A program made the translations under genes and the position numbers. From Methanobacteriota archaeon (GTDB taxonomy: Archaea > Thermoplasmatota > Poseidoniia > Poseidoniales > Thalassarchaeaceae), in NCBI GenBank assembly GCA_014239955.1, contig JAAZXW010000013.1, forward strand, positions 1-46,086: a stretch of 46,086 nucleotides of DNA, written 5' to 3'. Of the stretch, positions 1-13,147 are shown piece by piece. The notes under the pieces were generated by a model, which worked only from the letters and a program-made list of their open reading frames with translations, was not told the DNA's origin and ran no database searches. Every line of letters begins with the position of its first letter. Within the stretch, counting starts at the first letter, position 1.

Positions 1-3000
1 CCTCAAGGATTCCACTGCGACGTCCCCCGGCTGGACCCTTCGACTCTCCTTGAAGCAGGAGTAATTGGGGTGTTTCGTCTAGTTGATACCGACAAGGTCG
101 CACCTGATGCATTGCCCATCTTACAGGGAGGCTCCAATGATAACGTTGAGATGGAAGGGGAGAAGTACCTAGTCAGAGTCCTTCTCTCCGGCTCGGGTCA
201 CATCGCCGATCTACTGAAGACTGGCGTCGAAGTACGAGACTATCGTCTCGACAGGTTCGCAGATGTTTTGGTTGATTCAAAGGAAATCAGCATGCTATCC
301 GAGCAACCATTCGTCGAGTGGATTGAGCCTACCTATGCTCCGAGATTCGATAACCAAGAGGCGTCGGAGATCATCGGTGCGAATTGGGTGGTAGACTCAT
401 CGAACATGATGAGCCATGGTGGAGCGGTAACCGGGGATGGGGTTATTGTGGCTGTTATGGACTCGGGCCTTGACACTGCGGTGGAATGCAGTGGGCTTTC
501 CAATTGCAATGGCCTGAACTCGGGAGTGCATGCGGACTTCACTGGGAGGATAATGGGGGTCGTTTCATACAACAACTGCGGAGTATGCTCAGATGGAACT
601 GGTGGACCTAACGACTACAACGGCCATGGCACTCACGTAGCAGGTTCAGTTCTAGGGGATGGCAGCAACTCACCAGATGGGGAAGACAACAGTGGCATGG
701 CCCCTGGGGCGCAACTTTTCATGCAAGCAGTAGGATATGGCAACAATGACGGCTCACTTGCTACTCCTAGTTACGAAGATGCCTATGCGGAAGCATATGG
801 GGCAGGGGCTAGGGTTCACACCAACTCATGGGGCGTAGGACCTGACTCGACCAGCGGATGCAGTGGTTCGGCATGCTGGACATACTACTCATCCGACACA
901 ATGGAGTTGGACGCAGCGGCCAACGATTACCAAGACCTAACGATTCTGTTCGCGATGGGGAATGATGGCAGGGATTGCGTGTACACATCATTCGGATCGG
1001 TAAATTGCCCGAGCGGACAGAACGGGGAGGTTAATCTAGGCGCTCTAAACAGACAGGCATCAGCGAAGAACATCCTCTCAATTGGGGCGTCAGAGAATTA
1101 TCGCAATACCCTCCCTATGCATGCTATGTCCTATTTCGCCGTATGTGGCAACTGCGATTGGTATGGCAATCCGATCAAAACTGACCTTGAAGCAGATGAC
1201 CCAGAGGGCATGGCAGGCTTCTCCAACAGAGGCCCCACTAACGATGGCAGGACTAAACCAGATTTTGTGGCTCCAGGAACTTGGATTCACTCCACGAAAA
1301 CATCTCTGAGAGACGTTTGGACCGACCTTGGCGACTACTACACCGTAAAGAGGGGAACATCGATGGCGACTCCAATCACCGCTGGCTCAGTCGCACTGGT
1401 GATAGAGCACCTGAACACTCATGGCTACGACTGCAACCTTGCGAACAGCCCGACTAGCAATAACTGCCCCGATTCGGCTCTTGTTAAGGCAATCCTCAGT
1501 GCATCTGCCCATGATATGGAGGGTCAGTACAGCTCTGGAGGAGATGGTCAGAACGGGGCTGTGGAGAAGGCCCCGAACAGTCACGAGGGTTGGGGAAGGG
1601 TCGATCTCGAGAGGGCAATTGGTAGTGGATTCTCAGAAGGAATCGAGATCACTACATCGGATAGCCACTCGTTCAAATTGAGTGTTCCCGACTCAGGTAT
1701 TTCCAGCTTGAGAGTGGTTCTTTCATGGAATGAAATTGAGAATTCCCCTTCAGCAGGTACTCAACTCAGGAACGATTTAGACATTTTCCTCAAAAGTCCC
1801 ACTGGAGTCTTGCAGCCATACTCCAACGATGACGTGAACAACCTAGTTGGAATTTCCATTGATTCTCCAGATGCTGGTGACTGGGAGGTAATCGTAACCG
1901 GGGCGAGTGTAATCGATGGATCTCAGAAGTACTACTTAGCAGCCAGCGATGGCGTGCTGACAGACATGCGTCACCCCGTCTCAGACGGTTACGACGAACC
2001 TGGTTTCCAATCCGGCTCAATTTTCACCGAAACCACGATGACTAGTGGAGGCAACCACATTTGCGCGATACTTGACGATTCATCCCTTCAGTGCTGGGGA
2101 GAAAACTCATTCGGGCAACTTGGAGACGGCACGACAACCGATAGGCTAACGATGACGGAGGTGAGTCTCGATGCAGCTAGAACCGCGATGTCAATCAGCT
2201 CGGGTAGGGATCACACTTGCTCAATCCTGGATAATGGCGAGATGGAGTGCTGGGGTAGGAACAACTACGGCCAGCTTGGTGACGGGACGAATGATCAATC
2301 GATCTCACCCGTAGGGGTAAGCCTATCAGGAATACCCGTACAACTTTCCTCAGGAGAATGGCACACGTGTGCGATTATGGATGACGCTAGCCTGCAGTGC
2401 TGGGGAAGGAACGCAGACGGACAACTCGGAGATGGGACAAACACCGATAGCAGCACCCCCGTACCAGTTAGTATCGGAGAAAAGGTCCTAGCAGTCTCGG
2501 CAGGGGACGATCACACATGCGTCGTAACCGAATCGTGGGCCCTGAAATGCTGGGGGGATAACAGCAACGGGCAGTTGGGAATAGGTTCGACTTCTGCATC
2601 AAATAGCCCATCAACGGTTACTGTCGGCGGGAACGCCGTGGCAGTATCCGCAGGGGGCTCTCACACCTGTGTCCTAATCGAGGGGAACAATGTGAAGTGC
2701 TGGGGGGATAACAGCAACGGGCAGCTCGGGGATGGCGGGACAAACCAGCAGAACGACGCCGCCATAGTGGGCATCACTCTGACTGGAGCGATCGCAATTG
2801 ACTCTGGACAGAGCCATTCCTGCGCAGTGGACTCTAGTGATTCCCTCCACTGTTGGGGAGGGAGTGCAAATGGACAAGTCGGTGATGGCAGCACGTCCGA
2901 ACAAATCACATCTCCCACTGAAATCGCACTAGGGCAGAACATAGGTGCTCTATCAGTCTCATCTGGGTCATCGTACACTTGCGTTGTTGGAAGCAACGAC

Positions 3001-6000
3001 TTGGCCAGGTGCTGGGGTGGACATAGTTCTGGAGCCCTTTCCCTTGGGACCTCCCCCTCTGAGTTCACCATCGAAAGGTGGCGTTACATCAGCTCGTCGG
3101 AGAGGGATTGGAACAATAACGGCAACCTAAACATATTCGAAGTCGGCGTAAGCAATGACGATGATGGCGATGGTTTCCCGAATTCTGTCGATAGCGATTC
3201 CAGCAATCCGACCGTGGCAGCGAGCTGCTCATCTGGGTCATACGGCAGGTTCACGTGCAGGCAGGCCTCTCCTGGATACTACGTCAGTGGAACTGGTAAC
3301 ACGGTGATGACTCCGGCGAGTCCTGGACACTATGTGTTTGATGGCGGGGCAACCTCAGAAGAGCCATGCATCATAGGGGAGTTCCAGAGACTCTCTGGCC
3401 AGACCTCATGCGATGACGCAGAGCCTGGTTACTACGTTCCGGCCCCGGGAGCATCTGGTGGGACTCCCTGTCCTGCCGGCCAGTACAATGACTTGTACGG
3501 TCAGATCTCGATAGTTGCCTGCAAATGGGCCGAATCTGGTCACAGCGTCCCGGTACTCACCCAAATGACATCGGGGGCTTCGCACTCCTGTGCCATCCTG
3601 GATGACGGTTCGGTCAGCTGCTGGGGAGAGAATAGCAACGGGCAGCTCGGGGATGGTTCGAGGTCACCAAGCCTCGAGCCGGAGAAGTCCTCCATGCCCC
3701 TGGGTAGGAAGGCAGTGGAGATTTCCGCTGGTTCGTACCACACATGCACGATGTTCGACGACGGTTCAGTCCGCTGCTGGGGGTCGAATGAATTCGGACA
3801 GCTAGGGGATGGCACTACTGTCGAAAGAACGACGCCCGTCTCAGTAGACCTTGGGGAAGGAAAGAGCGCCCTGGGCATCTCATCCGGAGGATCGCATACC
3901 TGTGCGGTCCTCAATGACCGTAGCGTCAAGTGCTGGGGCCAGAATAGCAACGGGCAGCTCGGGGATGAGACGACAACCGATAGATCTGCCCCAGTACATA
4001 CAGCCATGAATGGAGAAGATGTCCTATCGGTCTCGGCTGGATCGTACCACACCTGTGCGATAATGGAAGGCAGGTCGGTAATGTGCTGGGGGGACAACTG
4101 GAATGGTCAGGTCGGGGATGGGACCAATGCCGATAGGTCGTCCCCAGTAGAAATTGAGATTCCTAGTAACAGCAGCGCAGTATCACTAGACGCAGGAGCA
4201 ATGCACACATGTCTGGGAATGAACGATGGGTCCATGTTCTGCTGGGGATACAACGCATACGGCCAGTTGGGGAACGGTGGGTATAGCAACTCCAACTCAC
4301 CCAGGACGGTCCCACTAAGTTCCAATCAGTTACTAACATCCGTCCAAGTAGGGCTGTTCCACAGTTGTGCGCTACTCGACTCAGGGCAGGTAGCCTGCTG
4401 GGGGGATAACAGCAACGGGCAGCTCGGGGATGGGTCGCAGAGTGGAAGTGGGATACCTGTAATTGTGAGCCTCGGCACGAATGCAACATCTATCTCAGTC
4501 GGCCAGAGACACTCATGTGCGATCTTGGACGATGCCAGCCTGCAGTGCTGGGGGGCCAACGAAGCAGGCCAGCTTGGGGATGGATCCAACTCTGATCGGA
4601 GCAACCCCACGGACATTGACCTTGGGCACGGCTCGAAGGAGCAACTGCCGTGCACACCCGGATCATACCAACCAAACCCATCTCAAACAACGTGCATGCT
4701 AGCTGGGAGGGGATTCATGGTCCCCCAGACAGGGCAAACAACCCAGATTGGGTGCGTGGCTGGGTACTACTCGAACCTGAAGGGGCAATCGGCATGTACA
4801 CCTGCCTCTAGGGGCTACTACGTAGCAGAGGCCGAATCATCATCTCAAACACCCTGTCCCAGTGGCCAATCGACATTGGATGAGGCCTCCACCTTCTTCG
4901 ACATGTGCTTCGCTGACTTCGACGGGGACGGCACTCCCGACCAGTTCGACACCGATGCCGACAACGACGGAGTTCCGAACGGGGACGACTACGACTGGTT
5001 GGACCCCGAAGTCTCCGCTGACTCTGATGGCGACAGGATACCCGACAGCATTGACGACGACGACGACAACGACGGTGTCAATGACACGGATGACCCATTC
5101 CCATTAGACCAAGGGGAGTGGGAAGACAAGGATGGTGACGGAATTGGGGACAACGACGACCAGGATGATGACGGGGATGGCAGGAGGGACATTTTCGACG
5201 TGTTCCCGAATGACAGTAACGAGTGGTCGGATGCCGATGGTGACGGAATTGGGGATAATTCCGACGCGGACGATGACAACGACGGCCGGTGCGATGACAC
5301 CACCTATTGGACCCCTAATGAGATCCCCCCAAACAGTGGCCCGAGCCAGGACGGGGACAACATCCCAGACTGCTACGCCTCCGCAAAGGGAGATGCGTTC
5401 CCATTCGATGCAAATGAGACTGATGACACGGATGGGGACAGCATCGGGAACAACGTGGATACTGACTGCGATGGTGATGGGTGGATCAACCCGGTCCCTT
5501 GCACAATGAACAGTGATGGGGCGAACGGCACGGATGCATTCCCTCTAGAGGACTGGAGATGGTCCGACTCGGACGGGGACGGCCACGCCGACCAGGGGAA
5601 GAACGCCGACGTTTTCCCAGATGACCCGACAGAGTGGATGGACAGCGATCGCGATAGCGTGGGCAACAACGTCGACGAGTGCCCATTCAACCCCGGGATT
5701 AACAACGAGACTGAAGACTTCATTGTACTGCTAAGCATACCTGGTAACGATCTTGGGTGTCCGATTCAAGCGATGCTCGGGGATGAGATCATAGTAGACG
5801 GATCGGAATCAGACGGCGAGGGCTTTGATGACGCAGAAGCCCCCGACTTTGACAATGACGACATTCCTGACTTGCTGGATACGGATGACGACAACGACGG
5901 GATCCCGGACACAGAGGACGGGATCCTCGGGGACGGACAGTGGTCCAGGGACCCATTCAGGCCCTTCACCTACGAGAATTGGGCCATCATCGCCATTTCG

Positions 6001-6093
6001 ATATCATTCATCGGGATGATGGGATACAGAGTGATCTGGTCGAAGAACAGGAGCATCTCCAACATCCGCTCCAAGAAGATCAGGATTCAATGA
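1..6093 (+). CDS. Giant surface subtilisin (S8) with two RCC1-like propellers and TSP3 repeats, 5' partial
   Basis: The reading frame is open to the first base, so the true start and signal peptide lie upstream; the first in-window start is GTG at 70 (residue 1 here, 2007 aa). An I9-like prodomain (about 1-105) precedes an S8 protease with Asp131 (MDSGLD), His186 (NGHGTHVAG), Asn298 (MGNDG) and Ser431 (GTSMATP), so it should be active. A jelly-roll-like segment (about 530-650) follows. Then come two blocks of seven RCC1-like blades (about 659-990 and 1168-1500), each blade with HTC...CWG.N..GQLGDG. Cys-rich GCC2/GCC3-like repeats follow each block. A long Asp-rich thrombospondin type 3 (Ca-binding) region (about 1616-1955), one C-terminal TM (about 1970-1988) and a basic tail end the protein. 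It is probably a cell-surface, outward-facing degradative enzyme; the propellers may bind substrate. The stop codon abuts a tRNA on the other strand. Confidence 0.93.
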   Translation, partial: PQGFHCDVPRLDPSTLLEAGVIGVFRLVDTDKVAPDALPILQGGSNDNVEMEGEKYLVRVLLSGSGHIADLLKTGVEVRDYRLDRFADVLVDSKEISMLSEQPFVEWIEPTYAPRFDNQEASEIIGANWVVDSSNMMSHGGAVTGDGVIVAVMDSGLDTAVECSGLSNCNGLNSGVHADFTGRIMGVVSYNNCGVCSDGTGGPNDYNGHGTHVAGSVLGDGSNSPDGEDNSGMAPGAQLFMQAVGYGNNDGSLATPSYEDAYAEAYGAGARVHTNSWGVGPDSTSGCSGSACWTYYSSDTMELDAAANDYQDLTILFAMGNDGRDCVYTSFGSVNCPSGQNGEVNLGALNRQASAKNILSIGASENYRNTLPMHAMSYFAVCGNCDWYGNPIKTDLEADDPEGMAGFSNRGPTNDGRTKPDFVAPGTWIHSTKTSLRDVWTDLGDYYTVKRGTSMATPITAGSVALVIEHLNTHGYDCNLANSPTSNNCPDSALVKAILSASAHDMEGQYSSGGDGQNGAVEKAPNSHEGWGRVDLERAIGSGFSEGIEITTSDSHSFKLSVPDSGISSLRVVLSWNEIENSPSAGTQLRNDLDIFLKSPTGVLQPYSNDDVNNLVGISIDSPDAGDWEVIVTGASVIDGSQKYYLAASDGVLTDMRHPVSDGYDEPGFQSGSIFTETTMTSGGNHICAILDDSSLQCWGENSFGQLGDGTTTDRLTMTEVSLDAARTAMSISSGRDHTCSILDNGEMECWGRNNYGQLGDGTNDQSISPVGVSLSGIPVQLSSGEWHTCAIMDDASLQCWGRNADGQLGDGTNTDSSTPVPVSIGEKVLAVSAGDDHTCVVTESWALKCWGDNSNGQLGIGSTSASNSPSTVTVGGNAVAVSAGGSHTCVLIEGNNVKCWGDNSNGQLGDGGTNQQNDAAIVGITLTGAIAIDSGQSHSCAVDSSDSLHCWGGSANGQVGDGSTSEQITSPTEIALGQNIGALSVSSGSSYTCVVGSNDLARCWGGHSSGALSLGTSPSEFTIERWRYISSSERDWNNNGNLNIFEVGVSNDDDGDGFPNSVDSDSSNPTVAASCSSGSYGRFTCRQASPGYYVSGTGNTVMTPASPGHYVFDGGATSEEPCIIGEFQRLSGQTSCDDAEPGYYVPAPGASGGTPCPAGQYNDLYGQISIVACKWAESGHSVPVLTQMTSGASHSCAILDDGSVSCWGENSNGQLGDGSRSPSLEPEKSSMPLGRKAVEISAGSYHTCTMFDDGSVRCWGSNEFGQLGDGTTVERTTPVSVDLGEGKSALGISSGGSHTCAVLNDRSVKCWGQNSNGQLGDETTTDRSAPVHTAMNGEDVLSVSAGSYHTCAIMEGRSVMCWGDNWNGQVGDGTNADRSSPVEIEIPSNSSAVSLDAGAMHTCLGMNDGSMFCWGYNAYGQLGNGGYSNSNSPRTVPLSSNQLLTSVQVGLFHSCALLDSGQVACWGDNSNGQLGDGSQSGSGIPVIVSLGTNATSISVGQRHSCAILDDASLQCWGANEAGQLGDGSNSDRSNPTDIDLGHGSKEQLPCTPGSYQPNPSQTTCMLAGRGFMVPQTGQTTQIGCVAGYYSNLKGQSACTPASRGYYVAEAESSSQTPCPSGQSTLDEASTFFDMCFADFDGDGTPDQFDTDADNDGVPNGDDYDWLDPEVSADSDGDRIPDSIDDDDDNDGVNDTDDPFPLDQGEWEDKDGDGIGDNDDQDDDGDGRRDIFDVFPNDSNEWSDADGDGIGDNSDADDDNDGRCDDTTYWTPNEIPPNSGPSQDGDNIPDCYASAKGDAFPFDANETDDTDGDSIGNNVDTDCDGDGWINPVPCTMNSDGANGTDAFPLEDWRWSDSDGDGHADQGKNADVFPDDPTEWMDSDRDSVGNNVDECPFNPGINNETEDFIVLLSIPGNDLGCPIQAMLGDEIIVDGSESDGEGFDDAEAPDFDNDDIPDLLDTDDDNDGIPDTEDGILGDGQWSRDPFRPFTYENWAIIAISISFIGMMGYRVIWSKNRSISNIRSKKIRIQ
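2041..4570 (+). repeat. Fourteen RCC1-like blade repeats in two blocks of seven
   Basis: Inside the giant subtilisin, the unit H[TS]C-x9-CWG-x-N-x2-GQLGDG recurs seven times from about 2044 to 3050 and seven times from about 3571 to 4570, spaced about 47-50 residues. Seven blades close one RCC1 propeller, so each block fits one domain. The last blade of block 1 is degenerate (CWGGHSSG). The DNA is also conserved: a 27-nt stretch is identical at 2548-2574, 2698-2724 and 4396-4422, and the last two copies stay identical for 38 nt. The conserved Cys pair per blade is compatible with disulfides in an extracellular propeller (inference). Confidence 0.85.
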
Positions 6094-6410: not shown

Positions 6411-7433
6411 ATGGCAAAAATGGCTCGAATAGGTGTTCTCGGACTCGGCAACTGGGGGACCGCCCTCGCTCTAGTGTGGTGCAAGGACGGTCACAACGTC
6501 TTAGGTTGGACCGTCGAGCAAGAGGTTTACGAGTCGATGATGACCAATCACGAGAACGAGAAGTACCTGCCGGGCTACAAGATCCCGGAGCTGGATTGCA
6601 CCATGGAGATCGCTGATGTCACGGAGAGCTGCGAGATTCTGGTCCTAGCACTTCCCAGCTCGGTCATTCTAGAGGTTGTAGACATGCTGATTCCTAGCCT
6701 CAGGCCATCGCACCTACTCGTCGATCTGGCCAAGGGACTTGCCCCATCGGACGAGGGTGGTTCTGGGATGATATCCGATGCCATAGAGATGAGGCTCTCC
6801 GAAGCCGGGATGGCCAATCAGGTCGTGGTGATGACTGGTCCCACTATAGCTCCCGAGGTTGCTCGGGGAGTGATCACCAACGCACTGGTAGCATGCCGTG
6901 ACATCGGAGTGGCGGAGAGGATCACTGAACGCCTCTCGACTGACTCCCTAATCCTCACACCTGCTGAGGACCCAGTCGGGGCAGAGTTATGGGGGGCGTA
7001 CAAGAACTGCGTTGCACTAGCATGCGGTCTCGTTGACGGTCTGAAGGACACCATAGGGGGTGACAACCTCAAGGCGGCTCTGGTACTATCGGGATACAGC
7101 GAAGGAATCGAGCTACTGGCGAAGATGGGGGCCGATCCCAAGACTGCCTTCGGGCCGGCGGGTATAGGAGACCTGTATGTGACGGCAACAAGTCCACGGA
7201 GCAGGAATAGGACACTAGGTGAGAAACTGGGGTCAGGGAAGTGTCTGGATGAGTCGCTAGAAGAGATGCACATGGTGGCAGAAGGGGTGCGAGCGACTAG
7301 GATGTTCCTGAATAGGTCAGAGAGGATGGGTCACCCGACTCCATTCCTGAGCACCTTGGGGAGCCTTCTGGACGGGGGCATCGAGGTCGAGGACGCGGTC
7401 AGGAGAATGGCCGGGGCATACGAAGTGAAGTGA
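6411..7433 (+). CDS. gpsA: NAD(P)-dependent glycerol-3-phosphate dehydrogenase
   Basis: It reduces dihydroxyacetone phosphate to sn-glycerol-3-phosphate in the cytoplasm. The 340-aa length fits the family. The Rossmann motif GLGNWG is at 11-16, the conserved Lys of LAKGL at 109, the GPTIAPE motif (GPSFA-E in most GpsA) at 143-149, the catalytic Lys198 in AYKNC, and the signature GPAGIGDLYVTATSPRSRNR at 248-267. An alternative ATG three codons downstream is equally compatible. A TATA-like element and a palindrome lie just upstream, suggesting leaderless and regulated transcription. This is the bacterial-type enzyme; archaea normally make membrane lipids from glycerol-1-phosphate via EgsA. It may serve lipid synthesis of the opposite stereochemistry or glycerol metabolism. 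Confidence 0.95.
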   Translation: MAKMARIGVLGLGNWGTALALVWCKDGHNVLGWTVEQEVYESMMTNHENEKYLPGYKIPELDCTMEIADVTESCEILVLALPSSVILEVVDMLIPSLRPSHLLVDLAKGLAPSDEGGSGMISDAIEMRLSEAGMANQVVVMTGPTIAPEVARGVITNALVACRDIGVAERITERLSTDSLILTPAEDPVGAELWGAYKNCVALACGLVDGLKDTIGGDNLKAALVLSGYSEGIELLAKMGADPKTAFGPAGIGDLYVTATSPRSRNRTLGEKLGSGKCLDESLEEMHMVAEGVRATRMFLNRSERMGHPTPFLSTLGSLLDGGIEVEDAVRRMAGAYEVK

Positions 7434-7453: not shown

Positions 7454-7915
7454 CTAGATTTGCTTCATTATTTCCAAAGTAGCACTGATCCAGTCAGCGG
7501 CATAGTCATCATAGTCCAAGTCACAGTCTATCCTTTTATTCACCCTAGAGCCGCCCTTTTCCTCAAGGAGGATGTCCCATTCCTTGCCTGATTCACAAAA
7601 GAACTCGAAGGCAGTATCGCCCAAGGCGAGAACTGCATAGCTAACACCGTCCATGCTGCCTACCTCAGATTCCTGCACAGAGTCATACAGATCCTGCGCG
7701 TTTACAGGCTGCTCCCCTTCTCCCCATGTGCTACAGATAACGATTAGCCTCTTCGCAGATGACAATGTTGCCAATGAAATGTCTTCCATGTCCATTACTG
7801 TTGGATTGAGGCCGGATATTCCGGCCAAATGTCCTGCATCTTCCGCTAGCACCTCAGCATTTCCAGTCTCTGTTCCGAAGATTAGTAGTAAGTCTCTGTC
7901 ATTCATTGCAACCAC
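7454..7915 (-). CDS. Flavodoxin (short-chain, MioC/CysJ-like)
   Basis: A 153-aa single-domain FMN protein for low-potential electron transfer. The phosphate-binding loop GTETGNAE is near the N-terminus (about 14-21), followed by the FMN loops STWGEGEQP (about 62-70) and ALGDTAFEFFCESGK (about 96-110). The 147-153 aa size fits a free flavodoxin rather than a reductase fusion. ATG at 7915 was used, but ATG three codons in (MNDRD) is also plausible. It is transcribed towards gpsA and ends 20 nt from it. Flavodoxins often replace ferredoxin in iron limitation, which suits the proposed iron importer nearby; that link is inferred. No iron-box palindrome was seen in its upstream region. Confidence 0.88.
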   Translation of the reverse strand: MVAMNDRDLLLIFGTETGNAEVLAEDAGHLAGISGLNPTVMDMEDISLATLSSAKRLIVICSTWGEGEQPVNAQDLYDSVQESEVGSMDGVSYAVLALGDTAFEFFCESGKEWDILLEEKGGSRVNKRIDCDLDYDDYAADWISATLEIMKQI

Positions 7916-8295: not shown

Positions 8296-9168
8296 TTATA
8301 ATGCCCATGATGGAATAAGGACTGACAGCCATTTTGGTCTAGAGACGTCTCCTTCCTCGTTGAACTGGGACCTGGCTTTTATGGAAAGAAAATCGATGAT
8401 TACTACAACTACGAAAATCACAATCAGGTAAGCTATCACCTTGTCGTACTGGAGAAACTTGAGGTAGAGATTGATGTAGTAACCAATCCCACCTGCTCCC
8501 ACGATTCCTATGACTGTGCCATGCCTAACATTGTATTCGAACATGAAAATTGCCTGGGAAATCAAGTTATTCGCTTGCTCGGGAATCACTACACCCAAAG
8601 CCTTCTCGATCTTCGTTAGACCCATTGAATCTGCAGCTTCTAGGGAAACAATAGACATTCCTTCAATTGACTCATACTGGAGTTTTCCGAGATATCCTAC
8701 TGTATAGATTGTCATTGCAAGTATTCCCGAGAGTGGACCAAGCCCAACCAATATCACAAAGAAAATTGCCCAAATTATACTTGGTAGACTTCTGAAAGCG
8801 GCGAGGACAATTCTCGCAGTGTGCGCCACAGGAGCAGAATTGAGGTTCCTAGACGCAAGAATCGAAATTGGAAGTGAAATCAGTACTCCAAAAACTGTGG
8901 AAACAAATGCAATCTTAATCGTCTCCACCATTCCAATCCAAGCAGTTGAACAGGTGAAGTCAACTAAGGGGTAAGCAGTGCATACCGGATAGGACCGGGG
9001 TTCGAGGATAGACCAGTCGGGAGGCCAGAGTGACTCATTGAAGAATACTACTAGATTTCCCGGGCCCCTGGATAGCCTCCCCCAATCATCTACCATGCCA
9101 TCCATCAACCAGAAGCAACCTAACAGAATCATCGGGGGTGCGATTACCCATCCCCCCCTACTCATCAC
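8296..9168 (-). CDS. phnE: ABC transporter permease, PhnE family (proposed iron importer)
   Basis: A 290-aa inner-membrane permease: one N-terminal TM, an external loop with Cys residues, then about five TMs. The family signature runs from RIVLAAFRSLPSIIWA through GPLSGILAMTIYTVGYLGKLQYES, with the EAA-type coupling loop (EAADSMGLTKIEKALGVVIPEQ) around 180-200. The ATG overlaps the stop codon of the ATPase gene in an ATGA arrangement, so both are translationally coupled. The family is named for phosphonate import, but the partner binding protein looks like a transferrin lobe, so the substrate is probably ferric iron (inference). Confidence 0.9.
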   Translation of the reverse strand: MMSRGGWVIAPPMILLGCFWLMDGMVDDWGRLSRGPGNLVVFFNESLWPPDWSILEPRSYPVCTAYPLVDFTCSTAWIGMVETIKIAFVSTVFGVLISLPISILASRNLNSAPVAHTARIVLAAFRSLPSIIWAIFFVILVGLGPLSGILAMTIYTVGYLGKLQYESIEGMSIVSLEAADSMGLTKIEKALGVVIPEQANNLISQAIFMFEYNVRHGTVIGIVGAGGIGYYINLYLKFLQYDKVIAYLIVIFVVVVIIDFLSIKARSQFNEEGDVSRPKWLSVLIPSWAL

Positions 9169-9908
9169 AATACCTCCAATGCAGTAGTCTGAGAGATGAA
9201 AGGGTTTACCCTACCGTCATCGATCACGAGCATCCTGTCAGCGATTGATTTAGCCCTAGAAACATCATGTTCCACTAAGATGAGGGTTGCCGACTTTCTC
9301 CTTACATAATCAATGACCTCTGTCTGGACCTTTTCCATCGTCTTATCATCTAGCTCGCTAAGGAACTCATCGGCCAAGATAATTTGTGGGGATTGGGAGA
9401 TGGCCCTAGCAGTAGCAACCCTCCTCTGCTGGCCACCTGAGAGTCTTCGAACGGGCTCATACATTTTTTCCGAAAGATCCATCCTCTCAATTGCATCCAA
9501 AGCGGAGTTTTTCGATTGTTGGGTCGGGAAAATACGAGAGGGCCCAGAATGGCCAGCTCTAGCTCCTAGCATGACATTGTGAAGAACGCTGGCGTGACGA
9601 ACCAAACCTAGTCTCTGCGGGATGTATCCAACGGATCCCCTAGTTGGCTTGAAAGGCAATTCTGAGCCAAAGACTCTCACGATTCCAGATATGGGTTTTA
9701 TTAGGCCTGCAATTGTCCTTACTAGAGTTGTCTTACCCACTCCAGATGGGCCTGTAATGGCCACAATCTCCCCAGGGAAGATCTCGAGACGAGGGATGTC
9801 AACAAGAGGGTTATTTTTGGAGTATCCAATTCTAACTCCCTCGAGGTAGACACTCGGATTCACTTTAAGATCTTTAGAATGCATGGAGGGACTCCAACTA
9901 TTATTCAA
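9165..9908 (-). CDS. phnC: ABC transporter ATPase, PhnC family (proposed iron importer)
   Basis: A 247-aa cytoplasmic nucleotide-binding subunit. Walker A GPSGVGKT is at 53-60, the signature LSGGQQRRVATARA near 157-170, Walker B IILADEF just after it, D-loop SELDD and the H-loop His in LVEHD. All catalytic motifs are intact. It starts 3 nt after the binding-protein gene and overlaps the permease by 4 nt, giving the order binding protein-ATPase-permease in one operon. Phosphonate specificity is not supported by the binding protein. Confidence 0.93.
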   Translation of the reverse strand: MNNSWSPSMHSKDLKVNPSVYLEGVRIGYSKNNPLVDIPRLEIFPGEIVAITGPSGVGKTTLVRTIAGLIKPISGIVRVFGSELPFKPTRGSVGYIPQRLGLVRHASVLHNVMLGARAGHSGPSRIFPTQQSKNSALDAIERMDLSEKMYEPVRRLSGGQQRRVATARAISQSPQIILADEFLSELDDKTMEKVQTEVIDYVRRKSATLILVEHDVSRAKSIADRMLVIDDGRVNPFISQTTALEVL

Positions 9909-9911
9909 TAA

Positions 9912-11051
9912 TTATGATGGGATCTCAAACTTCTGATCGTAGTAAGCAGAGATACCTGGTACGTTGGAAATCAAACTGGAATAGCTTCCAAGATGTTCTT
10001 GGGTGTTAACCCTAGTCAGACCAGGAGTGTTCAGGACATTGGACAATATCTCATCTCCACAGAAGTTCTTGTCGGAAGTCGAGTTAACCTGGTGGACTGA
10101 AAGATCGTAACACCCGGTGAATGTGCTCCCCATTACCGAGTAATTCTCAACGTACATCTGGTTGTTCAGAGACATCAGTGCATTGAGAACAGCGGTTCTA
10201 GACTGCATGTCCAGCATTTCTGGATTGTACATCAACGAATGGCTGGGGGCCTGACCGAAAGCAGGAAGGGAGACGTATTGGCTCATATCTAGGCACCAGT
10301 CCTCGTCGTCAAGCGGATCTTCGTTGTCACAATACGACGCTACTGTGCTGTCTTTGGCGAATGCGACGTCTCCGACTCCCTCTGAAAGGCATTTGACTGC
10401 CCCCGCGTATCCATAATATGGAGTTCCTGAATCTGGAATCGAGGCGTCCTCATTGAAGAATCCGTAAACCGTATTTCTCATTGTTTCGACATCGTTGGGG
10501 TCTCCCACTACATTGGCATATCCATGACCAATCAGATATCCCATGGGGAGTAGCATGCCCGCGGATTTCAACCACCCTGTGTGGCACGAGGTCTTTCCCT
10601 GTAGGAGTGCAAATGGGTCTGTACTTGGGTCCCCATCAATATGTGCTGCAGCCATCTCACTGTCTGCAAGAACCCAGGCGTGTGCGTTGTAATACGTCCT
10701 TCCATCGGATTTCTGATCCGCTGCTAGAACTTGTAGGCCATACTGCTGCCAACCGACCCATGCGGCACCACCGTCCATTAGTGCAATGTCAGCATTTCCA
10801 AACCTGAGAGCTTCTATCATTGCACCATCTGAGTCGACATTGTATAGAGAAACGTCGTAATTTAGCTCATCCGCTAGATAATCCGCTAATAATTGGGGGT
10901 TCTCATTTGGATCCTCATAATCGTCCATAACCTGGTATGCGATTACTAGTGTTTCCAATTGTTCTTCGTCGTCGTTGCCTGCGCAACCGGCCATAGTAGA
11001 AGAAAATATTAGCACAACAATCAAGCTCGTAAGTGTTTTTTTTACATTCAT
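9912..11051 (-). CDS. Transferrin-like lipoprotein, PhnD-superfamily binding protein
   Basis: A 379-aa lipoprotein: signal peptide with lipobox TMAGC (Cys23), then a type II periplasmic-binding fold like one transferrin lobe. By eye against the human transferrin N-lobe: Asp93 (LMDGG) matches Asp63; Tyr121 (YNAHAWV) matches Tyr95; SCHTG at 155-159 supplies the anion-site Thr158 (Thr120), with Lys162 where transferrin has Arg124; Tyr215 (GYAGAVKC) matches Tyr188; His271 (APSH) matches His249. Cys156 and Cys221 match the Cys118-Cys194 disulfide, and GDVAFAKDSTV matches GDVAFVKHSTI. It is therefore likely to bind Fe(III), probably with carbonate, outside the cell and pass it to the permease. Automatic annotation would probably say phosphonate-binding PhnD. 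The gene abuts a DtxR-type palindrome. Motif identity is seen; iron binding is inferred. Confidence 0.87.
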   Translation of the reverse strand: MNVKKTLTSLIVVLIFSSTMAGCAGNDDEEQLETLVIAYQVMDDYEDPNENPQLLADYLADELNYDVSLYNVDSDGAMIEALRFGNADIALMDGGAAWVGWQQYGLQVLAADQKSDGRTYYNAHAWVLADSEMAAAHIDGDPSTDPFALLQGKTSCHTGWLKSAGMLLPMGYLIGHGYANVVGDPNDVETMRNTVYGFFNEDASIPDSGTPYYGYAGAVKCLSEGVGDVAFAKDSTVASYCDNEDPLDDEDWCLDMSQYVSLPAFGQAPSHSLMYNPEMLDMQSRTAVLNALMSLNNQMYVENYSVMGSTFTGCYDLSVHQVNSTSDKNFCGDEILSNVLNTPGLTRVNTQEHLGSYSSLISNVPGISAYYDQKFEIPS

Positions 11052-11068
11052 TTTAGGTCACCCTAAAA
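11051..11068. promoter_or_regulatory. DtxR/IdeR-like iron box at the transferrin-like gene start
   Basis: TTTTAGG-TCAC-CCTAAAA is a perfect 18-nt inverted repeat containing TTAGG-N4-CCTAA, the core of the DtxR/IdeR consensus. Its first base is the A of the minus-strand ATG. It lies between that ATG and a TATA-like element at 11074-11079, so bound metallo-repressor would block initiation of a leaderless transcript. The regulator gene is not in the window. Confidence 0.78.
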
Positions 11069-11079: not shown

Positions 11080-11094
11080 GAGGTCTTTATCAAA

Positions 11095-11110
11095 TTTAGG
11101 GTGGCCTAAA
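11095..11110. promoter_or_regulatory. Second DtxR/IdeR-like iron box, facing the divergent gene
   Basis: TTTAGG-GTGG-CCTAAA is a perfect 16-nt palindrome of the same class as the one at 11051-11068, 44 nt away centre to centre. It lies directly downstream of a plus-strand TATA-like CTTTATCAAA (11085-11094) and 24 nt before the ATG of the secreted-protein gene. It would cover the transcription start of that gene, mirroring the arrangement on the other side. Confidence 0.76.
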
Positions 11111-11134: not shown

Positions 11135-13147
11135 ATGTTCATGGGTGCTTTCATGAAACCCATGGGGAGAGTACTGCGTGCCTCTGCGATTGCTCTTGTA
11201 GTAGTTTTCTTGTCTCCAATAGGACAATTCTATGATGATCAAAAAGTCATGATTGGAGAGTATACCAGGATGGAGCAATTTGGAGGTGGTGGATCTCTGG
11301 AAGAGCAATGCAGTTCGATTACTTTCGAGGATATTTTCCTCTACAACCAGGCAATTTTCGAGGTTCGTGTCAATGATGACTGGAATAGTGCTCAGGTAGA
11401 TGCCAAGGCATGGATCAACTGGTCCCTTGCTGATGACATTAGAAACGATCTGGATTCTTTCTTGGAAGGAATTGTACCCTCGGGTGGTGATGGCTGGCTA
11501 TCTTCGGATGAAATCGATGCAATGGTTTCGATTGCTGCTGACTGTCTTGAGTACAGTATCACAAGGATAGGGATTCGAGATGGACCCCCTCACAGAGGAG
11601 GTGCAGGAGTGAGTTGGATGAACACAACTTGGGAGGATGATCAGACCAACATTGGCCATTTCAACGGAGTTCCCCCCCGACATTCACAAGCGAGGGACTG
11701 TCAGGGGTTTAGCCAGGATGGGTGCTCCGAGGTTCCAGTAGTCCCAGCTTCGGTGAGAGATTGCGACACTGGGATCAATGAATCAATGGGAGTTGATGAG
11801 TGTAGAATTGAACTATGGCTAAATGCCACAATGATGATTGATGGGGTTTCTGATCCTAATGACTTCACGATTGCGTTCAATTCGTCGAACATGAGCAATG
11901 CAAGATTGGACTTCACATTCCCGGTGATGCCGGACCTGAGAATGGACATGTGGGAGGAGTGCGAAGGGAGGTTCGTAGGTGCTGATGAGGATAATCCTCT
12001 CACAGACTCTGCACCTATCAGAGGAAGTTGCTTAGGTGACGGTTCTGCAGATTATGAATTAAGAACCAACGACGATGGTAGTCTGACTTACTCACTCAAC
12101 TCAAACTTCTCAAGAGAAGAGTGGCCATTGGGAGAAGACGTCTTTGCAGACTTCACGACATCCCCAATTCCTACCGATGAGGCTCCTACTTGGACCCAAC
12201 AAGCACCTTCTGATGGCATCTGGATCCCAGTACTCGAGGAAGGGGCAACCAAGTTATCAACCTGGGAAGAAATTGCATCTTGGTTCCATGACGAATCGGG
12301 AGTTTCCAATTTAGATGTCGTCTGCAATTCCGGAGGTAGTGAGATTTCGCAGAGCATCGATGGTTCATTGTGGATCAATGTCGACGGAGTCTCAGAAGTC
12401 TCATGTGAGGCGATCGATGCTACTGGAAAGTCCAGCGGGAACAGGACTTGGCACATCGGAGTACCAGTTACAATTTCGACCTCTGCATTAATCCTTCAAG
12501 AACAGCACCCCCTGAGGATTTTCCATTCAGAAGCATGGACTGAAGACACAACAGTGCGCCTAGCACTGATCCAGAACGGCCAGCATAGTGGGATTCAGGA
12601 ATTCCACAAAGGAAATTCATCATTTCAGGACGTGTTAATTCAACCACATGGAGTTGTTCCCGGTCCCGTCAAAATTTGGATTGAAGTAGTAGTTGGAGAG
12701 TTTTCATCCCAGAAGACCTTAGATTTGGGTATTGTAAAGGAAAGTGCACCTCCTTCACTGACCATTGGCTCTGGCATATTTGATGGTAAAATGTGGAGGG
12801 TGGGTGGACAATTCAGTGACCCAGATGGCGAGACTGTAACTTTCAACATAGCGACCAATGGGCAGGATTTGGGTCAGATTATGGTATCTGGAAATACCTG
12901 GGAGAGCGAATGGATTGATCTTAGTATGTTTACCTCCGAATTTATCGAGGTGCAGATCACAGGTTGCGACCAGTCTGGCAAGTGCACGACCACTAGCATT
13001 GCCGTAGATCTCTCATTGATGGTCGAAGAAATCCAAGACCTGCCGGGTGAGGATGAAGATTCAGTGGGAAGCATTCCCACTTTGGGCATCCCCTCACTGA
13101 TCATAGCAGTCTCGGTGGCAGTACTTTTCAGAAGACGGAGCGCGTGA
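11135..13147 (+). CDS. Secreted or surface-anchored protein divergent from the iron importer
   Basis: A 670-aa protein with no recognised family. An N-terminal signal sequence (hydrophobic ASAIALVVVFLSPIG) is preceded by four candidate starts (residues 1, 3, 7, 10); the first is listed. The mature part is Asp/Asn-rich with many N-glycosylation-type sequons and scattered Cys pairs. An EF-hand-like GGDGWLSSDEID lies near 115-126. The C-terminal third looks beta-sandwich/Ig-like, and the end is a Pro/Gly-bounded TM followed by RRRSA, resembling archaeal C-terminal surface anchors. A DtxR-type palindrome lies in its promoter, so it is probably derepressed in low iron together with the importer. 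It could bind or release iron at the surface, but nothing in the sequence proves this. Confidence 0.8.
   Translation: MFMGAFMKPMGRVLRASAIALVVVFLSPIGQFYDDQKVMIGEYTRMEQFGGGGSLEEQCSSITFEDIFLYNQAIFEVRVNDDWNSAQVDAKAWINWSLADDIRNDLDSFLEGIVPSGGDGWLSSDEIDAMVSIAADCLEYSITRIGIRDGPPHRGGAGVSWMNTTWEDDQTNIGHFNGVPPRHSQARDCQGFSQDGCSEVPVVPASVRDCDTGINESMGVDECRIELWLNATMMIDGVSDPNDFTIAFNSSNMSNARLDFTFPVMPDLRMDMWEECEGRFVGADEDNPLTDSAPIRGSCLGDGSADYELRTNDDGSLTYSLNSNFSREEWPLGEDVFADFTTSPIPTDEAPTWTQQAPSDGIWIPVLEEGATKLSTWEEIASWFHDESGVSNLDVVCNSGGSEISQSIDGSLWINVDGVSEVSCEAIDATGKSSGNRTWHIGVPVTISTSALILQEQHPLRIFHSEAWTEDTTVRLALIQNGQHSGIQEFHKGNSSFQDVLIQPHGVVPGPVKIWIEVVVGEFSSQKTLDLGIVKESAPPSLTIGSGIFDGKMWRVGGQFSDPDGETVTFNIATNGQDLGQIMVSGNTWESEWIDLSMFTSEFIEVQITGCDQSGKCTTTSIAVDLSLMVEEIQDLPGEDEDSVGSIPTLGIPSLIIAVSVAVLFRRRSA

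Follow-up and report, generated by a model that had tools for sequence, protein, structure and literature searches.

Our data indicate that the first gene of an ABC transport operon in a Thalassarchaeaceae genome encodes a transferrin family member, which very probably serves as the surface-anchored binding protein of a ferric-iron importer. The gene (9912..11051, minus strand) lies in the window, by which we mean the whole stretch of DNA analyzed: one contig of 46,086 bases from a genome of 1.28 Mb that is 79% complete. It has an ATG start and encodes a single-lobe substrate-binding lipoprotein of 379 amino acids, with a lipobox (MAGC) and Cys23 as the predicted lipid-bearing residue. This reading rests on the family of the protein by sequence and fold, the site residues that it keeps, the operon and its operator, and the genes elsewhere that share this operator.

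The lipoprotein matched the Pfam Transferrin family (PF00405) in two stretches with 72.5 bits (E = 4.6e-20, cut-off 20.3). It also passed the cut-off of the Phosphonate-bd family (PF12974; 59.5 bits, cut-off 27), yet with a lower score than for PF00405, and it stayed far below the cut-offs of the NCBIfam models for PhnD (TIGR03431; 35 bits, cut-off 261.1) and for phosphate/phosphonate-binding proteins (TIGR01098; 54.9 bits, cut-off 112.05). The phytotransferrin/FEA1 family (PF07692) did not appear among the matches listed up to E = 1. In a phmmer search of all PDB chains, the best match was lactoferrin (1f9b; E = 1.1e-30), and the best 60 of 104 matches were transferrins and their close kin (for instance melanotransferrin and inhibitor of carbonic anhydrase). 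A profile built from 57 archaeal lobes gave the same picture in the best 60 of its 102 PDB matches (best E = 7.5e-36). Among 14 control genomes, PF00405 had no match in any, whereas PF12974 was found in 12 and over its cut-off in 10, which argues that PhnD-type proteins do not ordinarily register as transferrins. We also considered a chance resemblance to transferrin, and ruled it out on the E-values of the PF00405 and 1f9b matches. By the sequence features that we tested, the lipoprotein is a member of the transferrin family, with the single exception of the Arg124 position, where it has a lysine.

An AlphaFold2 model of the lipoprotein, computed from 57 sequences, had a pLDDT of 88.3 and a pTM of 0.78. 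When this model was compared with the PDB using Foldseek, the best 50 of 785 matches (E-values up to 0.001) were all transferrins, with a best E-value of 2.8e-16. The TM-scores were moderate (about 0.45-0.58 by query length and 0.51-0.65 by the length of single-lobe targets, with an rmsd of 7-10), which we tentatively ascribe to a different hinge opening. In the predicted secondary structure, a helix follows directly on D93, Y121 is part of a strand, a loop leading into a helix contains T158 and K162, Y215 opens a helix, and H271 sits between two strands; the ligands of transferrins are placed in this way. The preliminary description of this DNA had proposed a single-lobe transferrin, with a comparison of transferrin and PhnD-type profiles as one means of checking it; the ranking of the profiles and the closest listed structures by both sequence and fold bear this proposal out.

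Alignment with lactoferrin places the residues of the predicted binding site. The N-lobe of lactoferrin has D, Y, C, T, R, Y, C and H opposite D93, Y121, C156, T158, K162, Y215, C221 and H271 of the archaeal protein, and the C-lobe agrees as far as its printed stretch, which ends before the His. The four putative iron ligands named in the preliminary description, Asp93 (MDGG), Tyr121 (YYNAHAWV), Tyr215 (YGYAGAVKC) and His271 (PSH), are numbered correctly and align with the lactoferrin motifs. The same alignment confirms Thr158 within SCHTG and Lys162, of the same charge, at the place of Arg124, and it puts Cys156 and Cys221 where transferrin has its Cys118-Cys194 bridge, as had been suggested.

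To distinguish what is particular to transferrins in this set of residues, two PhnD-like proteins of the same phylum serve as controls (L177 and L178, from genomes G330 and G338); both are over the PF12974 cut-off, and both genomes are absent from the 112 PF00405-bearing genomes of our phylum sample. Tyr121, Tyr215 and His271 are common to both controls. At the other positions the controls have G or S for D93, A for C156, S or P for T158, S for K162 and A for C221, and their anion loops read SLTSTSG and STTSTSG against SCHTGWLKSAG in the lipoprotein, in which the STSG type of loop was not found. This pattern suggests that what sets the transferrin clade apart is Asp93 together with the CHT loop, the cysteine pair and the basic residue, and that the three other ligands are more widely shared.

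We identified relatives by searching with the archaeal-clade peptide patterns SCHTGWLK and SAGML[ML]PM, a search that could miss Arg-bearing bacterial transferrins. The best 80 of 251 confirmed relatives gave 77 related loci; seven stretches of viral contigs matched a pattern and none of these was confirmed as a relative. Across 57 aligned lobes, taken from the window and from the 77 loci, the six site residues (D-Y-T-K-Y-H) are intact in 52; taken singly, the Thr158 place is T in 54 of the 57 and the Lys162 place is K in 52, and both cysteines are kept in all 57. The five exceptions read NSSDDD (twice), ESNDDD, PRTSEE and DYTHFD, with six, six, six, five and three of the six residues changed, and they come from second lobes of two-lobed proteins (L090, L093 and L096) and from an extra gene of L053, in which both lobes are affected. 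Joint loss of three to six scattered residues, with the cysteines staying, is as expected if these residues form one site. Asp93 is replaced by Glu in three of the 15 rows of our first alignment (L023, and L005 and L015 in their second lobes), and a deep relative, L111, lacks the equivalents of Tyr215 and Lys162.

The transferrin gene is the first of an operon that continues with an ABC importer ATPase (9165..9908, minus strand) and an ABC importer permease (8296..9168, minus strand). Counting from the first start codons, the ATPase gene starts 3 bases past the stop codon of the transferrin gene and shares 4 bases with the permease gene. The partners had been described beforehand as PhnC/PhnE-type subunits. 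The operon context and the permease agree with this (PhnE type, TIGR01097; 217.9 bits, cut-off 216.7), but the ATPase falls short of it: PhnC (TIGR02315) is its best NCBIfam model, at 144.3 bits against a cut-off of 266.1. The order transferrin-ATPase-permease on one strand recurs in all 70 related loci with at least 1.8 kb of downstream sequence, out of the 77. In L111, L112 and L113, which come from three other families of the phylum, ABC genes also adjoin the transferrin gene, lying upstream of it in L111. Downstream of the operon lies a flavodoxin gene (7454..7915, minus strand), as in L034, L037 and L073; within the window no exact copy of the operator described below precedes it. A 670-amino acid protein encoded divergently from the operon (11135-13147, plus strand) shares the intergenic region with both operators and may be co-regulated; it has no Pfam match. 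The window also encodes a subtilase of 2007 amino acids with many RCC1 repeats (70-6093, plus strand). Rfam gave no match at the gathering score between positions 7000 and 12000.

Two predicted operators precede the transferrin gene. The proximal one, TTAGGTCACCCTAA (11053..11066), stands directly before the start codon, and the distal one, TTAGGGTGGCCTAA (11096..11109), is of the identical box type; both consist of palindromic half-sites and resemble the boxes of DtxR/IdeR. Between them lies a putative TATA-like element (atttgataaa; 11086..11095, minus strand), recognized by eye; in related loci we saw acttcatata and similar elements flanked by boxes (by eye, on the 21 of 77 rows inspected). 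The box, TTAGGN4CCTAA, is the core of the DtxR/IdeR box TTAGGTTAGSCTAACCTAA given in the available part of a review. The window's own genome has exactly two such sites, both before the transferrin gene, and the same number of sites for a backward control pattern. In 76 related upstream regions (from 78 transferrin genes, two of which had too little upstream sequence), an exact box occurs in 60, against a mean of 0.02 after mononucleotide shuffling, and a box with at most one mismatch in 67, against a mean of 0.62. The typical arrangement is mostly two or three 14-base boxes before a transferrin gene, and by eye exact boxes also precede the transferrin genes of L111 and L114. The nine regions that have no box are those of L090, L093, L096, L097, L098, L100, the extra L053 gene, L091 and L105. 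The genes with decayed lobes (L090, L093, L096 and the extra L053 copy) are thus also among those that have no box, and in L091 and L105 the gene starts look misplaced.

The genome encodes a DtxR protein (PF01325 and PF02742) that contains the stretch VACKMEH. The available part of the review names Cys102 as an iron-selective ligand, with Glu in its place in MntR, and includes manganese sensors in the DtxR family. Aligned by eye, the Cys of ACKMEH occupies the place of Cys102, which suggests an iron-type regulator. In L113, a DtxR-like gene with an SCDMEH stretch seems to end just upstream of the transferrin gene, as read by eye from the DNA.

Outside transferrin operons, the box is also found before genes for Fea1, FTR1 and flavodoxin. 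At least one exact site occurs in 54 of 60 genomes of the order Poseidoniales, but the backward control pattern is in total commoner, so that single sites elsewhere can be due to chance. We hand-picked 19 regions where a box lies away from a known transferrin gene. It precedes a gene for Fea1 (PF07692; a low-iron-inducible protein of the phytotransferrin family) in nine of them (L153, L157, L159, L160 and L167 among others), a gene for the iron permease FTR1 in one, flavodoxin in one, an M28 peptidase in two and a DUF4149 protein in one; the remaining five have no frame behind the box or were unscanned. One of the M28 peptidases (L156:1904-4000) carries a ZIP transporter domain and is possibly a metal-transport fusion, and the DUF4149 protein (L161:1554-1931) is encoded directly behind its box.

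Among 78 genomes of the order, FTR1 occurs in eight, which belong to five genera: eight of the 14 genomes that lack transferrin and none of the 64 that bear it (hypergeometric P = 1.3e-7, uncorrected for kinship and with incomplete genomes). The other six transferrin-lacking genomes have neither protein. In the four FTR1 loci that we fetched (L202-L205), an exact box starts 66-86 bases before the match in all four. From this exclusion and the common box, the transferrin-ABC system and FTR1 look like alternatives for iron uptake that one switch controls. Fea1 is found in 20 of the 78 genomes and in none of the 14 controls; 19 of the 20 also have transferrin, and in at least six (G198, G206, G242, G248, G249 and G251) the Fea1 gene and a transferrin-type gene lie within about 5 kb of each other. 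The window's own genome has no match to PF07692. For ferrous uptake, we rejected FeoB_N as a weak test, since its matches fall mostly in frames of about 200-500 amino acids (a few of 600-640), lengths that fit other GTPases, and used FeoB_C in its place; FeoB_C is found in none of the 78 genomes, against seven of the 14 controls.

These results bear on how the operon is labeled. The available text of PMC6336850 gives phosphonate transport as a trait of the core genome of Marine Group II (MGII), and it uses neither the word transferrin nor the word siderophore. PF12974 is over its cut-off in 63 of the 78 genomes of the order, and all 63 carry transferrin; it is absent from 11, which also lack transferrin; the remaining four, one of them with transferrin, have only weak matches. 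Most of the listed PF12974 matches fall in frames as long as one or two lobes, and where we compared contigs by eye they coincide with the transferrin lobes. PF12974 outscores PF00405 in five of six relatives scanned, among which the most divergent, L111, has the highest PF12974 score; the best 60 of its 108 PDB matches are nonetheless all of the transferrin family (best E = 7.5e-29). This co-occurrence suggests that the phosphonate-transport trait of MGII is most likely the transferrin-ABC operon, and that genes annotated for phosphonate uptake in these marine archaea most likely encode a system for taking up iron. The preliminary description had already called the phosphonate label wrong, and both the box common to Fea1, FTR1 and flavodoxin genes and the mutual exclusion with FTR1 support it in this.

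Within the order, 252 of 318 genomes, representing 20 of 22 genera, have a PF00405 match over the cut-off. In a sample of 389 genomes from the phylum, 112 have one; six of these are not from the order, of which three belong to the same class and three come from one further family each. Three loci titled Flavobacteriaceae, Deltaproteobacteria and Rhodobacteraceae (L054, L085 and L093) hold transferrin operons of the Poseidoniales type and probably come from misnamed or contaminated bins. Two lobe matches stand in tandem in 52 of the 77 related loci, 51 of 78 genes are two-lobed by frame length, and in L053 two two-lobed genes follow one another. In our trees, whose animal rows are partial and long-branched, the N- and C-lobes of lactoferrin pair with each other (support 100) and the archaeal N- and C-lobes fall among archaeal sequences, which suggests that two-lobed transferrins arose more than once. 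Two trees root the archaeal sequences differently, and AU tests rejected neither a tree that holds the archaeal transferrins together (P = 0.257) nor one that joins animal and Poseidoniales sequences apart from the deep ones (P = 0.355).

An origin of transferrins from phosphonate-binding proteins has already been proposed, according to the available part of a review. We tentatively extend this to a scenario that we hold to be somewhat short of probable as a whole: transferrin would have arisen in Thermoplasmatota-type archaea from a PhnD-type ABC binding protein through the gain of Asp63, the CHT loop, Lys/Arg and the disulfide; the eukaryotic proteins would be derived from it or share a direct ancestor with it; two-lobed forms with a decayed second lobe would have appeared separately in archaea and in animals; and Poseidoniales would still use the ABC form, some of them together with Fea1 under the same iron switch.

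For the importer itself, we infer Fe(III) and carbonate as the cargo, and likewise the docking, the release, and the identity and action of the repressor. The lipid-anchored lobe would close on Fe(III) and a synergistic anion, most likely carbonate, with Asp93, Tyr121, Tyr215 and His271 as the metal ligands and the anion held by Thr158, Lys162 and the start of the next helix. The closed lobe would then dock on the PhnE-type permease, and permease and ATPase together would open it and pass the iron inward. With ample iron, an iron-type DtxR repressor would sit on both boxes and turn the operon off.

We weighed this against other readings of the same data. The lipoprotein could be a PhnD-type binding protein for phosphonate, phosphite or phosphate that merely looks like a transferrin, as its PF12974 score over the cut-off, the PhnE-type permease, the three ligands shared with PhnD-like proteins and the higher PF12974 scores of five of six relatives might suggest, and as the MGII phosphonate-transport trait named above would imply. 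We consider this highly improbable: PF00405 scores higher on the lipoprotein itself and the NCBIfam PhnD models are far below their cut-offs, the lipoprotein has SCHTGWLK where the PhnD-like controls have their STSG loop, even L111, with the top PF12974 score, has only transferrin-family chains in its best 60 of 108 PDB matches, and neither the FTR1 exclusion nor the occurrence of the same box before Fea1, FTR1 and flavodoxin genes fits phosphonate uptake. It is also very unlikely that the gene was acquired from eukaryotes, animals or algae, and later fitted to an ABC operon. Its similarity to animal transferrins is clear and our trees do not fix the deep branch order (AU P = 0.257 and 0.355), but in other families of the phylum there are members that both the PhnD and the transferrin profile match and that have ABC genes next door, and the animal N- and C-lobes pair together, apart from the archaeal lobes.

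Within the iron-importer reading, the anion might be phosphate or a small organic chelate in place of carbonate. Bacterial FbpA uses phosphate, and the lysine in place of arginine at the anion site of 52 of 57 lobes and the kinship with phosph(on)ate-binding proteins both point the same way; against them stands the Thr-containing CHTG loop, kept as in lactoferrin, and we regard such an anion as unlikely. A different cargo altogether, manganese or another hard metal ion, with an operator that answers a manganese-type DtxR homologue, has in our view only the slightest chance. The DtxR family does include manganese sensors, as noted above, but the organism's own DtxR has, aligned by eye, Cys at the selective position, and the co-regulated genes include FTR1, Fea1 and flavodoxin.

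In the open-access full-text literature that we searched, we recognized no report of an archaeal transferrin. Transferrins themselves and their proposed origin from phosphonate-binding proteins are already known from the accessible literature. New within the literature searched, as far as our searches show, are the use of a transferrin as binding protein by an ABC importer of archaea, its iron box and the genes that share it, the mutual exclusion between transferrin and FTR1, and archaeal two-lobed forms whose second lobes have decayed. MGII are described in the available text of PMC6461757 as the planktonic archaea that are most abundant in the surface waters of the ocean, and in the available parts of the MGII papers examined, searched for iron, phosphonate and transferrin, we found no passage on their route of iron uptake. 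The transferrin-ABC system would be a main candidate for it, and would correct the phosphonate-transport trait assigned to the MGII core genome in the available text of PMC6336850. It would make transferrin chemistry accessible in a prokaryote with simple genetics, and would offer a directly testable link between phosphonate-binding proteins and transferrins that concerns the origin of transferrin. Diatom iron uptake is sensitive to ocean acidification, according to the accessible part of the literature; if uptake by these archaea depends on carbonate, it may be sensitive in the same way.

Several known systems share parts of this arrangement. In the FbpABC systems of bacteria, a binding protein hands Fe(III) to an ABC pump, and the archaeal operon would by analogy be an ABC ferric importer of the same plan; no FbpA-type match is among the families listed for the lipoprotein, whose closest family is transferrin. 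With PhnCDE importers it shares the operon layout, the PhnE-type permease, the PF12974 binding-protein family and three site residues, whereas PhnD-like controls lack Asp93, the CHT loop, Lys162 and the cysteine pair, and the archaeal operon has an iron box. The box is the core of TTAGGTTAGSCTAACCTAA as in DtxR/IdeR regulons, and the regulator has, by eye, a Cys at the iron-selective place; what differs is that these operators, predicted from the DNA, are 14-base palindromes that stand before a transferrin gene in archaea. The algal phytotransferrin ISIP2a/FEA1 (PF07692) resembles the archaeal protein in surface capture of Fe(III) by marine cells, if Fe(III) is indeed the cargo here, but the window protein has no PF07692 match, and ISIP2a works by endocytosis, as described in the available literature. 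The animal transferrins (serum transferrin, lactoferrin and melanotransferrin; PF00405) have D-Y-Y-H ligands, an SCHTG loop and a cysteine pair that align with those of the lipoprotein, and they are its closest listed folds. Unlike them, the archaeal protein is lipid-anchored, has Lys for Arg124 and, in this genome, a single lobe, and it is encoded with an ABC ATPase and permease; in our trees, whose animal rows are partial, the two-lobed forms of archaea arose apart from those of animals.
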